Below, in pieces: positions 2,988-5,607 of a stretch of 23,537 nt of DNA. Every line of letters begins with the position of its first letter. The stretch's first letter is position 1. The notes beneath the pieces were generated by a model. The model was not told the origin of the DNA. It was given only the letters and a program-made list of their open reading frames with translations, and did not search any database. The position numbers and the translations under genes are program-made. Source of the DNA: a virus; IMG/VR virus record IMGVR_UViG_3300032242_003284, positions 1-23,537 of that record; one strand, 5' to 3'.

Positions 2988-3005
2988 ATCTTTAATAATT
3001 TATTG

Positions 3006-3079
3006 TGGGCTCGGTCGGAATCGAACCGACGATTACTTGATTATGAGTCAAGAGCCTTAACCAGCTTGGCCACAAACCC
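3006..3079 (-). tRNA. tRNA-Met (CAU anticodon), possibly tRNA-Ile2
   Basis: A complete 74-nt cloverleaf: acceptor GGGTTTG with CGAGCCC (two G-U pairs), D-arm GCC/GGC around a loop containing GCTGG, anticodon stem CTTGA/TCAAG with loop CTCATAA (anticodon CAU), and T-arm GTCGG/CCGAC with loop TTCGATT. The discriminator base is A and CCA is not encoded. CAU can be initiator Met, elongator Met or, if lysidine-modified, Ile2. The acceptor begins with a G-C pair and there is no initiator-type mismatch, so elongator Met or Ile2 is preferred. Confidence 0.93.
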
Positions 3080-3080
3080 A

Positions 3081-3134
3081 AATATCGCTATAATAAGCGA
3101 TAAATGTGAATATCGTTTCTTTTAACGATAAATG
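3081..3134 (-). repeat. Two tandem 26-nt hairpin repeats filling the spacer between the RNA genes
   Basis: Two units at 3081-3106 and 3109-3134 share the pattern aaTATCGYT-N6-ARCGATAaatg. Each folds into a 7-bp stem with a 6-nt loop: TATCGCT/AGCGATA in the first, TATCGTT/AACGATA in the second. The only stem difference is a C-G pair changed to T-A, so the pairing is preserved while the sequence changes; the loops are unrelated. They occupy exactly the gap between the 3' end of the tRNA-like RNA (3135) and the 5' end of tRNA-Met (3079). A role as a processing signal is an inference. Confidence 0.8.
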
Positions 3135-3297
3135 CTGTCAGAGGTGGATTCGAACCACCACGGTGCGATTCAGTTAGTAACATTGCCGGCCGGCTGGTGG
3201 TCATTCCCATATTACTAACCTATTTCGTGCTCACCCTCTCCGAGACAGGAAGAGATTGTCTGCCAAAGCTTTTTACAGCTAATTCCAACACCTGACA
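3135..3297 (-). ncRNA. tRNA-like RNA with D-loop insertion and giant variable arm
   Basis: Reading the minus strand, TGTCAGG (3297-3291) pairs over 7 bp with TCTGACA (3142-3136), followed by G as discriminator. A canonical T-arm is present (GGTGG, TTCGAAT, CCACC; 3159-3143). The D-arm reads TTG-GAATT...GGCAGA-CAA, the pattern of tRNA-Leu, but a 16-nt insert (3280-3265) carrying its own AGCT/AGCT hairpin splits the D-loop. CTCTTC/GGAGAG (3254-3249 with 3241-3236) forms a 6-bp anticodon-like stem with loop CTGTCTC. Between it and the T-arm, 3235-3162 forms a long arm: GGTG/CACC, then a 12-bp stem (3220-3209 with 3083 positions apart at 3183-3172), topped by a GC-rich loop. The nominal anticodon GUC with U37 is atypical, so decoding is doubtful. 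It begins 5 nt after the preceding stop codon. Alternatives are an interrupted or decayed tRNA. Confidence 0.6.
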
Positions 3298-3302
3298 ATT
3301 TA

Positions 3303-3659
3303 CTATTTACTACCTGATGTATAACTTATATTAGCACCGTTAGGAAGATTAGTCCAACTTGTATTAGTATTTGTTATCATACCACCAGGAATATTATAAG
3401 TACCATTACTTCCTGATGTTGATGTAAATATTACACCACTTTCAGGAGTTACACAAGTTACCTTAAATGGATTTTCCCACGGATTTCTATAATGTGGGGG
3501 TGGCATTGGTTCAGTATTGGGAACAACAGTAGGCCATATAATTGGTTCAGCTACCTCGGATAACTTATTTTTTAATAAGTCCCATTGAGCTTGGGTAGGG
3601 ATGCCATCAACAGCATCCACAAACCCATTTAGCCAAAAAATAAATTCTTTACTCGTCAT
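3303..3659 (-). CDS. Phage protein of unknown function, 118 aa
   Basis: The first 40 residues (MTSKEFIFWLNGFVDAV, then a Gln/Trp/Leu-rich helix and LSEV) form a short helical pair typical of a small family in T4-like phages with unknown role. The second half is Pro-rich (VVPNTEPMPPP) and then Thr/Ser/Asn/Gly-rich with beta character, ending in GANISYTSGSK, as in repetitive surface or tail-associated proteins. I start at 3659, one base after the groEL stop; a longer frame from 3686 would run 27 bases into groEL. It is likely co-transcribed with groEL and lies directly ahead of the RNA genes. Confidence 0.65.
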   Translation of the reverse strand: MTSKEFIFWLNGFVDAVDGIPTQAQWDLLKNKLSEVAEPIIWPTVVPNTEPMPPPHYRNPWENPFKVTCVTPESGVIFTSTSGSNGTYNIPGGMITNTNTSWTNLPNGANISYTSGSK

Positions 3660-3660
3660 A

Positions 3661-5301
3661 TTACATTCCACCAAAGTCCATTCCATTCATATTCATAGAA
3701 GGTTCTTCCTTCTTATTTTCAGTAATAATACAATCTGTTAATAGGATTGTACCTGCAGTAGATACTGCATTCGTCAAAGCTGTCTTGATTGTTTTAGTTG
3801 GATCTAAGACACCATCTTGATATAAGTCAACCCACTCGGATGTTTTAACATTATATCCATACCAATATTGATCTCCTGACTGAATATCATTTTGAATCTT
3901 CCAAATTTCTGAATCAGTATATCCTGCATTAGAAAGAATCTTAATGATAGGAGATTCAAGTGCTTGCTCAATAATATCAAATCCAATAATTTCTTCTTGT
4001 GTTTCTAGGTCTACCCTCTTTGATCTAAGAGCTTTTTTTGCCTTAAGTAAAGCAACACCACCACCAGGAGATACACCATCTTCTATGGCAGATTTAGCAG
4101 CATGTAGAGCATCTTCAGCACGATCTTTCTTTTCTTTTATTTCAATGTCAGATGCACCACCAATACTAATAATTGCAACACCACCTGCTAACTTAGATAA
4201 ACGTTCTTGTAGTTTTTCAGTTTCATAGGCTGAGTCCGAACTATCAATTTGATTTTTAATTTGCATAGCTCGTTGTGCAATAGATTCTTCAGATCCTTTA
4301 CCATCTACGATAGTAGTTACTTCTTTCTGAACTGTTGCAAGACGACACTCACCTAGCCAATCTAAGTCAAATTCTTCTAAACGCATTCCTTTCTGTGATG
4401 TAACAACAGTACCTCCAGTAATAACTGCTAAGTCTTCCATAAATTGTAATCTACGATCACCATATTCAGGAGCTTTAACAGCTGCTACTTTAAGACTACC
4501 ACGAGACTTATTAATTACTAAAGTAGCTAACGCTTCTCCATCAATATCCTCAGCTACAACTAGTAGCGAATGATTGTCGTTAGAAAGACTCTCAAGTAGG
4601 CCCAATAATGGTTTAACCTGTGTGATCTTCCCATCATATATTAAGATCTTTGGCTTATCCAATATTGCTGACATCTTGTTATTATCAGTAACAAAATAAG
4701 GTGAACGGAATCCACGATTAAATTGAATACCTTCTACAACTTCGAGAGATGTTTCACCAATACGAGATTCCTCTACCGTAACAATTCCTTCTACACCAAC
4801 CTTATCCATTGCTTCTGCAATTAAAAATCCAATATCTGGATCGTTATTAGCTGAGATTGTTGCTACTTGTTTGATTTGATCTTTTGTCTCTATGCTTTTT
4901 GACTGAGATTCTAATTCATTAATAACAACATTTAGTGCTTTATCGATTCCTTTCTTAACTGCAGCCGGATTATGATGACTCATGATCAAACGATATCCAT
5001 TTTTAACAATACTCTGAGTAAGTAATACTGTTGTTGTAGTACCATCACCACATTCCTTTACAGTTCTTTTTGCTGCCTGCTTAATGATCTGTGCACCAAA
5101 GTCTTCTACGGGATCCTCTAATTGCTTGATTGAATCGGAAATACTTACACCATCTTTTGTGTTCTTAATGGTTCCATACTCATCCTTGAAGATTGTATTT
5201 TTACCACTTGGCCCTAATGATGTAGTAACTGCTTCTGCAACAATATTAATACCAGCTAAAAGTTTTTCTTTTGCCTCTTTACCTAATGTAACTTTATTCA
5301 T
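3661..5301 (-). CDS. groEL: Chaperonin GroEL (Hsp60), phage-encoded
   Basis: 546 aa, the normal length of bacterial GroEL (548 in E. coli). Visible landmarks are the TSLGPSGKN nucleotide-binding loop (about 28-36), GDGTTTT at about 85-91 with the catalytic Asp86 matching E. coli Asp87, the SPGGGVALL segment in the equatorial domain, and a flexible C-terminal tail ending NGMDFGGM. It should form a double-ring ATP-driven folding chamber in the host cytoplasm with the GroES gene located 12 nt upstream. Its sequence departs from host-type GroEL in the apical domain, as expected for a phage version, and substrates such as capsid or tail proteins are likely but not shown. The start follows an A/T-rich leader with no Shine-Dalgarno sequence. 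Confidence 0.97.
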   Translation of the reverse strand: MNKVTLGKEAKEKLLAGINIVAEAVTTSLGPSGKNTIFKDEYGTIKNTKDGVSISDSIKQLEDPVEDFGAQIIKQAAKRTVKECGDGTTTTVLLTQSIVKNGYRLIMSHHNPAAVKKGIDKALNVVINELESQSKSIETKDQIKQVATISANNDPDIGFLIAEAMDKVGVEGIVTVEESRIGETSLEVVEGIQFNRGFRSPYFVTDNNKMSAILDKPKILIYDGKITQVKPLLGLLESLSNDNHSLLVVAEDIDGEALATLVINKSRGSLKVAAVKAPEYGDRRLQFMEDLAVITGGTVVTSQKGMRLEEFDLDWLGECRLATVQKEVTTIVDGKGSEESIAQRAMQIKNQIDSSDSAYETEKLQERLSKLAGGVAIISIGGASDIEIKEKKDRAEDALHAAKSAIEDGVSPGGGVALLKAKKALRSKRVDLETQEEIIGFDIIEQALESPIIKILSNAGYTDSEIWKIQNDIQSGDQYWYGYNVKTSEWVDLYQDGVLDPTKTIKTALTNAVSTAGTILLTDCIITENKKEEPSMNMNGMDFGGM

Positions 5302-5313
5302 GTATATATAACT

Positions 5314-5607
5314 TTATTCTGTGATTACTGCTTGTACAATTGCTTCTTGGCAACTATAATATTGAACTCCATTATGCTCTATAATAATTGGTCCAATCTT
5401 TGGGATAATAACAATTTCTCCAACCTTTAGCTGAGTTGGTAGAATTTCTCCAGTAAAACTATAACGGCCAGGTCCAACGGAAATGATTTTTCCTTTTAAT
5501 GGTCTTTCTTGACCCATATCAGCAATTACAATTGCTCCTCTTCTTTCTTCTTTATCCTTGATTGGCTCAATGATAATAAAATCAAAAACTGCTTTTAATT
5601 CAGACAT
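5314..5607 (-). CDS. groES: Co-chaperonin GroES
   Basis: 97-aa Cpn10 protein, the usual length. The N-terminal strand FDFIIIEPI, the mobile-loop region (KDKEERRGAIVIAD, about 18-31) that docks onto GroEL, KGKIISVGPGRY, and VGEIVIIPKIG followed by a C-terminal strand match the GroES fold. It caps the GroEL ring to enclose substrate. Unlike phage T4, which supplies only gp31 and relies on host GroEL, this phage carries both partners side by side. Gene order is thioredoxin, groES, groEL, with 3-nt and 12-nt gaps, so they are one transcription unit. Confidence 0.95.
   Translation of the reverse strand: MSELKAVFDFIIIEPIKDKEERRGAIVIADMGQERPLKGKIISVGPGRYSFTGEILPTQLKVGEIVIIPKIGPIIIEHNGVQYYSCQEAIVQAVITE

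Follow-up and report, generated by a model that had tools for sequence, protein, structure and literature searches.

What kind of RNA is encoded by a 163-nt element that has every part of a tRNA cloverleaf in order and yet is double the length of a tRNA? The question is raised by the virus record IMGVR_UViG_3300032242_003284, analysed here as one stretch of 23,537 nucleotides (the window), in which the element lies on the minus strand at positions 3297-3135; its D-loop contains a hairpin and its variable arm measures 74 nt. A first-pass annotation made from the letters of the window alone had singled it out. We find that it almost certainly represents a real, conserved and previously unlisted RNA family, and, beyond the view afforded by a single locus, that this family is mainly a chromosomal RNA of Bacteroidota, whose phages also carry copies.

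Unguided minimum free energy folding returns the same architecture as the cloverleaf drawn in the first-pass annotation, whose elements prove to be placed correctly base for base. The fold consists of a 7-bp acceptor stem with one G-U pair, a 3-bp D-stem, a 6-bp anticodon-like stem closed by the loop CUGUCUC, a long arm whose 12-bp stem includes two G-U pairs, and a T-arm (GGTGG-TTCGAAT-CCACC in the DNA); the 16-nt D-loop insert sits between D-loop positions 17 and 18 (Table 1). The folding energy is modestly unusual (z = -1.87, and z = -1.66 for the homologue described below), and because z is only about -1.9, single-sequence folding was not relied on as proof and homologues were needed. Standard tools pass over the element: ARAGORN and a gathering-threshold scan with Rfam 15 each report the neighbouring tRNA-Met alone, and relaxing Rfam to E up to 10 yields no tRNA-type match to it.

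The first homologue was obtained through a GroEL search, which led to a phage (L002) whose sequence shares ~96% identity with the window for the greater part of its length but only ~75% in the tRNA region. The L002 copy has a 5-bp anticodon stem, the loop UUGUCUC, an encoded GCCA end and a standard 11-nt Leu-type D-loop without insert, so the D-loop hairpin of the window is best regarded as an optional insertion. All 41 pairs of the fold are retained between the two copies, 15 of them through changes on both sides, and these double changes are spread across all main stems, those of the long arm and of its tip hairpin among them. Controls in which the pairing partners were slid keep at most 14 pairs and at most three double changes. 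The first-pass annotation had named homologues without compensatory changes as what would refute the structure; here, and in every helix across the wider family, the compensatory changes are present. The diverged segment (window 2998-3317) forms a 75%-identity island in a genome otherwise ~96% identical, which suggests that recombination has replaced it.

Of 50 related phage records, 11 contain the RNA according to a covariance model built from these two copies (R1), in most cases within a tRNA array. Across 97 distinct family members, 93.7% of alignment cells pair and 37 of the 42 pairs show double changes; 802 double-change cells were observed against 226 in shuffles, and on no measure does any of 500 shuffles come up to the real alignment. 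Because that alignment was fitted to R1, the pair counts lean towards the R1 structure; the comparison of the window with L002 and the detection by a chromosome-only model (below) are not tied to the fit in the same way. Constant features lie at the acceptor end, where U1-A72 occurs in 95, G2-C71 in 96 and U3-A70 in 92 of the 97 distinct members and G73 in 87/90 phage and 67/67 chromosomal sequences, and in two loops, which hold a constant GUCUC (anticodon-like loop, YNGUCUC) and a constant UGACCAC (variable-arm loop). The statement that no described family has this architecture is borne out by Rfam 15, in which the element matches no family, and neither the window nor the seven member loci scanned match ROOL or GOLLD; the open-access literature yielded no description of the family, which leaves room for one elsewhere.

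A scan of bacterial genomes located members in the chromosomes of Chitinophaga, Aquirufa, Sporocytophaga, Flammeovirga, Cyclobacteriaceae and Saprospiraceae. To remove circularity, we built a model from chromosomal rows only (R3), and it recovers the window element at exactly 3135-3297 with 96.9 bits (E 2e-26). Scores of a wider model (R2) are bimodal, with members at or above 73 bits and ordinary class II tRNAs at ~65 bits or less. At the 73-bit threshold and with even sampling, a member is present in 85/118 genomes (~72%) of the order of Aquirufa (Cytophagales) and in 54/120 (45%) of that of Chitinophaga (Chitinophagales), counts that were made by hand from score tables and cover many genomes that may be incomplete. 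R2 found no member in 19 non-Bacteroidota genomes or in two Bacteroidales (one Prevotella, one Bacteroidaceae), where the best match was an ordinary class II tRNA at no more than 61 bits. The narrower R1, at 60 bits or above, matches roughly a tenth of the 392 genomes in a phylum-wide sample. Many pattern matches outside Bacteroidota in the genome scan (Halomonas, Nocardioides and others) were rejected as chance.

Most genomes with a single locus carry one copy, and tandem arrays reach five copies in Flammeovirga (L263) and four in Sporocytophaga (L302). Short paralogues of ~110-120 nt, without the distal arm and with short closed arms of their own, stand beside full copies. In Cytophagales and Chitinophagales loci, an AsnC/Lrp-family gene often lies ~100-300 bp from the RNA in divergent orientation, with sufB or trmB nearby; its product is nearest to AsnC (156 bits, against 50 bits for Lrp). 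The Bacteroidota -7 box TANNTTTG is found upstream of 35/70 copies as compared with 5.8 in shuffles, and many copies have, no more than a few bases past the 3' end, a G+C hairpin and T-run resembling an intrinsic terminator. Many Cytophagales, Chitinophagales and Saprospirales thus encode the family RNA as a stand-alone gene in their chromosomes. In four Chitinophaga genomes (G051, G052, G054, G056), a gene for asparaginyl-tRNA synthetase (AsnRS) is located at a distance of 7-10 kb from both the RNA and its asnC-like neighbour, a proximity that was not seen in the other genomes checked.

Among viruses, two pattern scans of IMG/VR gave 32 loci and then at least 120 stretches, and essentially all retained loci score 63 bits or more. 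Contigs with a family member reach 321 kb and therefore include jumbo phages, and for 61 of 92 phage copies a recognised tRNA gene is found no more than 1 kb away. BLASTN of two family members against isolated phages gave no member at E up to 0.1; BLASTN searches at E up to 10 gave only short AT-rich or generic tRNA matches. Three further loci reached with the loop motif alone, through exact 18-mer and gapped searches (L079, L080, L082), were discarded as chance matches in protein-coding sequence on inspection. The largest class of phage copies combines the D-loop insert with C33 (45 distinct), and 26 distinct copies have only the palindrome at the arm tip that is described below. A tree of the family core needs about three changes between phage and chromosome, with too few columns to fix the number of phage acquisitions. 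One phage carries, beside a full copy, a second and degenerate one that is missing the UGACCAC tip (L109 3961-4107), and in another (L127 2043-2212) the D-loop insert itself holds GUCUC, a string identical to that of the anticodon loop.

What the RNA may do is indicated by which tRNA features have been kept. Aspartate identity in bacteria is conferred by G73, G34, U35, C36 and C38, and amidation of Asp-tRNA by GatCAB requires U1-A72 and is blocked by G1-C72 or U20a (PMC9976931). All five aspartyl-tRNA synthetase (AspRS) determinants are found in the window and in nearly all members. The first-pass annotation had judged the nominal anticodon GUC with U37 inconsistent with a Leu/Ser-type body; that is right, but GUC together with C38 and G73 constitutes the aspartate identity set, and the combination is not arbitrary. 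As for GatCAB, U1-A72 is present and G1-C72 absent, and the D-loop reads GG-C-A/T, with U at position 20a in a minority. The cloverleaf, 7-bp acceptor, T-loop and G18 G19 of a decoding tRNA are retained, but U33 and a purine at 37 are not: pyrimidines occupy position 37 in every distinct row of the family alignment except one (U37 in nearly all members), and C33 occurs in 46/90 distinct phage copies, with U33 in most chromosomal ones. Because the aspartate determinants are kept while positions 33 and 37 are degraded, charging would appear to have been retained and decoding lost. These features make it quite probable that the RNA does not decode, as the first-pass annotation had proposed in suggesting a tRNA adapted to another job, a proposal that the conserved architecture also supports; there is perhaps an even chance that it is aminoacylated, most likely with aspartate. 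Charging by seryl-tRNA synthetase (SerRS), whose set comprises G73, C72, G2-C71, C11-G24 and a large variable region, is possible: G73, G2-C71 and the long arm are present, but A72 takes the place of C72, and pair 11-24 is U-A in 79/97 and C-G in 14/97 distinct members.

Hosts possess a normal tRNA-Asp (12/12 by BLAST), GatB (14/14), AsnRS (14/14) and a separate tmRNA (6/6), the last of which led us to reject identity with tmRNA. ARAGORN makes tmRNA calls at 23/92 phage copies, some with long tags such as DEMSTMTFEDLMSFVGADYALAA. A tmRNA is also encoded in several phage loci, as judged by Rfam gathering matches (L190 1076-1462, L120 868-1313 and others). A small open reading frame running from an AUG in the arm loop through the T-arm in both first members was set aside as coincidence, because the loop is unchanged at every base between the diverged copies and the frame crosses the 3' half of the tRNA.

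Phage copies differ from chromosomal ones in the symmetry of their exposed loops. Perfect palindromes of at least 6 nt occur in 69 of 71 distinct phage arm tips (shuffle mean 18.5, maximum 33) and of at least 8 nt in 53 of 71 (mean 4.5, maximum 10), and long D-loops hold palindromes of at least 8 nt in 28/49 cases (mean 2.4, maximum 6); the distinct tips include related sequences, so not all are independent events. Chromosomal tips are at chance level, with 13/48 at 6 nt or more against a shuffle mean of 11.3. The palindromes comprise 19 different hexamers at the tip and 16 in the D-loop, and symmetry that is kept while sequence changes is a prediction of homotypic kissing loops. Some palindromes are out of register with their stem (GGG-UAGCU-CCC, GGC-UAUCGAU-GCC), and for these stem formation alone would not account. 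Pairing within one molecule was rejected both between the two palindromes, which could cross-pair in only 2/53 molecules, and between arm loop and T-arm, as the T-arm differs in L002 and the loop does not. Conserved self-complementary exposed loops, the mark of RNA homo-oligomers, are found in phage members only, and on balance we favour self-association of the phage copies through these palindromes.

The reading we prefer, to which we assign a probability of about one half, is that of a non-decoding, probably aspartylatable tRNA-like RNA that was adopted by phages and made self-associating; the RNA is apparently built for carrying an amino acid or a signal and not for reading the genetic code. 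It would be processed and CCA-tailed as a tRNA and aspartylated by AspRS through G34, U35, C36, C38 and G73. The pyrimidine at 37, and C33 in half of the phage copies, would keep it from decoding, and its charged or uncharged state, or the amino acid itself, would be put to a use other than normal elongation, and the UGACCAC loop in the long arm would be a putative partner-binding site. Phage forms would have gained self-complementary loops at the variable-arm tip, and often in the D-loop hairpin, through which they might kiss into dimers or chains, so that in infection the phage RNA would be stable or would dominate that of the host. A more specific version, which we hold only tentatively and think unlikely, makes the RNA a carrier for Asp-to-Asn conversion outside protein synthesis: AspRS would charge it (GUC, C38, G73), GatCAB would amidate it owing to U1-A72, the divergent AsnC-type regulator would control its amount, and phage copies would assemble via their rapidly changing palindromic kissing loops. 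In E. coli, the corresponding divergent position beside asnC is occupied by asnA. Several observations weigh against the preferred reading or parts of it. AspRS also favours the G1-C72 of bacterial tRNA-Asp, whereas the family has U1-A72; G73 with a large variable region also partly fits SerRS; and a few chromosomal paralogues alter position 34 (CUUUCUC, CUCUCUC, CGAUCUC), which would weaken aspartylation. The 156 bits of the AsnC-like protein fall under the NCBI equivalog cut-off of 227, the AsnC synteny was not found in the Saprospiraceae and Flammeovirga loci seen, and the palindromes could be under selection at the DNA level.

That last possibility can be stated more fully: the palindromes would act in DNA, as cruciforms or protein sites, or stem from a mutational process, and the RNA would be monomeric. 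Perfect inverted repeats are indeed also DNA symmetry elements, but the hexamer sequence is free while its symmetry is kept, unlike a protein site, chromosomal homologues are at chance, and the palindromes fall in the two loops most exposed in a tRNA fold; we regard this account as improbable. Somewhat more credible, if still a minority view, is a regulatory or scaffold RNA that is never charged, whose tRNA fold would allow it to be processed and keep it stable, while its exposed GUCUC and UGACCAC loops would base-pair with mRNA or rRNA or be bound by a protein. The conservation of both loops goes well past what structure requires, the gene has its own promoter and terminator, and the Bacillus cereus pseudo-tRNA tRNA-Other (PMC3399842) offers a precedent; the near-invariant U1-A72, G2-C71, U3-A70 and G73 point instead to an enzyme acting on the acceptor end.

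The phage copy might alternatively be a decoy or spare for a host anticodon nuclease that targets tRNA, its palindromic loops stabilising or masking it. Proximity to tRNA genes is a setting linked to counter-defence, and the loop has been retained in phage copies while the rest changed. However, the family is of long standing as a chromosomal gene and has a synteny of its own, so decoying cannot be the original role, and we consider even a derived one rather doubtful. Still less plausible is a working decoding tRNA for Asp or Ser with oversized arms: the full Asp anticodon with C38 and G73, the intact T-loop and G18 G19, and U33 in most chromosomal copies would suit it, but U37 nearly throughout, C33 in so many phage copies, the normal tRNA-Asp of the hosts and the paralogues altered at position 34 do not. 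The first-pass annotation had also entertained an interrupted tRNA. Apart from its doubled length, nothing favours a gene with a spliced intron, and we give the idea next to no weight: the long arm is itself conserved and covarying in more than 150 members, its covariation in the 97 distinct ones being that of a lengthened class II variable arm, many members have no D-loop insert, and the short paralogues close their own arms.

Of known RNAs, class II tRNAs (Leu/Ser/Tyr, RF00005) share the 7-bp acceptor, Leu-like D-arm with G18 G19, 7-nt anticodon loop, canonical T-arm and position of the variable arm; the family RNA differs from them in its 74-nt arm with the UGACCAC loop, U37, frequent C33, and an Asp-type loop combined with G73. 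Phage T4 has two stable non-tRNA RNAs within its tRNA cluster, RNA C (species 1) and RNA D (species 2), of which RNA C has a T-arm, but they are without GUCUC or UGACCAC loops and were rejected as homologues at 12.4 bits, which is no family score. The B. cereus tRNA-Other is a chromosomal tRNA-shaped RNA without translation function and, unlike the family, belongs to a larger regulatory RNA next to a genomic island; it is set apart here by its published description (PMC3399842). ROOL and GOLLD are phage RNAs, often near tRNA islands, that form homo-oligomers via kissing loops (PMC12286853), but they are much larger (GOLLD >800 nt) and without a tRNA body. None of these nearest precedents (T4 RNA C/D, the B. 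cereus pseudo-tRNA by description, ROOL/GOLLD) shares the architecture. tmRNA has a tRNA-like end, and some phage loci and hosts of the family RNA also encode one, whereas the family RNA has a full D-arm and anticodon arm. The HIV-1 dimerisation initiation site exposes short perfect palindromes such as GCGCGC or GTGCAC in a loop, though in an unrelated retroviral genomic RNA.

A large proportion of the genomes of two bacterial orders, and more than 100 phage contigs, thus carry a structured RNA gene that Rfam 15 does not list and ARAGORN misses. With charging determinants kept and decoding ones lost, it offers a natural test of tRNA roles outside translation; the AsnC neighbour provides a concrete physiological handle, and since phage copies are palindromic where host copies are not, RNA self-assembly can be tested directly as a phage trait.

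Table 1. Parts of the tRNA-like element and the adjoining tRNA gene, in window coordinates.
Feature	Position	Strand	Basis or remark
Whole tRNA-like RNA, 163 nt	3135..3297	-	5' end 3297, discriminator G73 at 3135; R3 match covers exactly 3135-3297
Acceptor stem, 5' strand UGUCAGG	3291..3297	-	Fold and family conservation
Acceptor stem, 3' strand UCUGACA	3136..3142	-	Pairs with 3291-3297
Discriminator G73, then CA (full CCA not encoded)	3135	-	Sequence
D-loop, Leu-like GAAUU...GGCAGA, G18 G19 retained	3259..3285	-	Sequence
D-loop insert AGCUGUAAAAAGCUUU, 16 nt; hairpin AGCU/AGCU; palindrome AAAGCUUU	3265..3280	-	Missing in L002 and nearly all chromosomal copies
Anticodon-like arm UCUUC-CUGUCUC-GGAGA	3237..3253	-	Fold, L002 comparison
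Anticodon-like loop CUGUCUC	3242..3248	-	GUC 3246-3244, U37 3243, C38 3242
Giant variable arm	3160..3236	-	Fold, L002 comparison, family covariation
Distal 12-bp stem of arm	5' strand 3209..3220, 3' strand 3172-3183	-	Three double compensatory changes against L002
Conserved arm loop GGGAAUGACCACCA, family motif UGACCAC	3195..3208	-	Conservation in members
Variable-arm tip palindrome GCCGGCCGGC; L002 counterpart GCAUGCAUGC	3185..3194	-	Sequence
Canonical T-arm GGUGG-UUCGAAU-CCACC	3143..3159	-	Sequence, fold
Ordinary tRNA-Met(CAU), next gene downstream, same strand	3005..3079	-	ARAGORN, Rfam

Between the tRNA-like gene and tRNA-Met, window positions 3080-3131 contain two short inverted repeats with TATCG motifs, which are kept in L002 despite divergence of the flanking RNAs and are possibly processing or regulatory elements. 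The window phage also encodes its own GroEL and GroES (3661-5607), adjoining thioredoxin and replication genes, and relatives of this GroEL occur in ~75 other IMG/VR loci, most at ~50% identity. Related phages carry tRNAs with four-base apparent anticodons (AAAA, AAAT) beside tRNA-Met (L015 11466-11539; L062 and L068 12522-12595). Another class II tRNA-like RNA, with a D-loop hairpin of 27-30 nt whose loop contains CCGG or TCCGGA and an apparent 8-nt anticodon loop, was found at L046 12805-12924, beside tRNA-Met, and at L042 8560-8680; it matches the family weakly (21-24 bits) and is possibly a second tRNA-like family with kissing loops.
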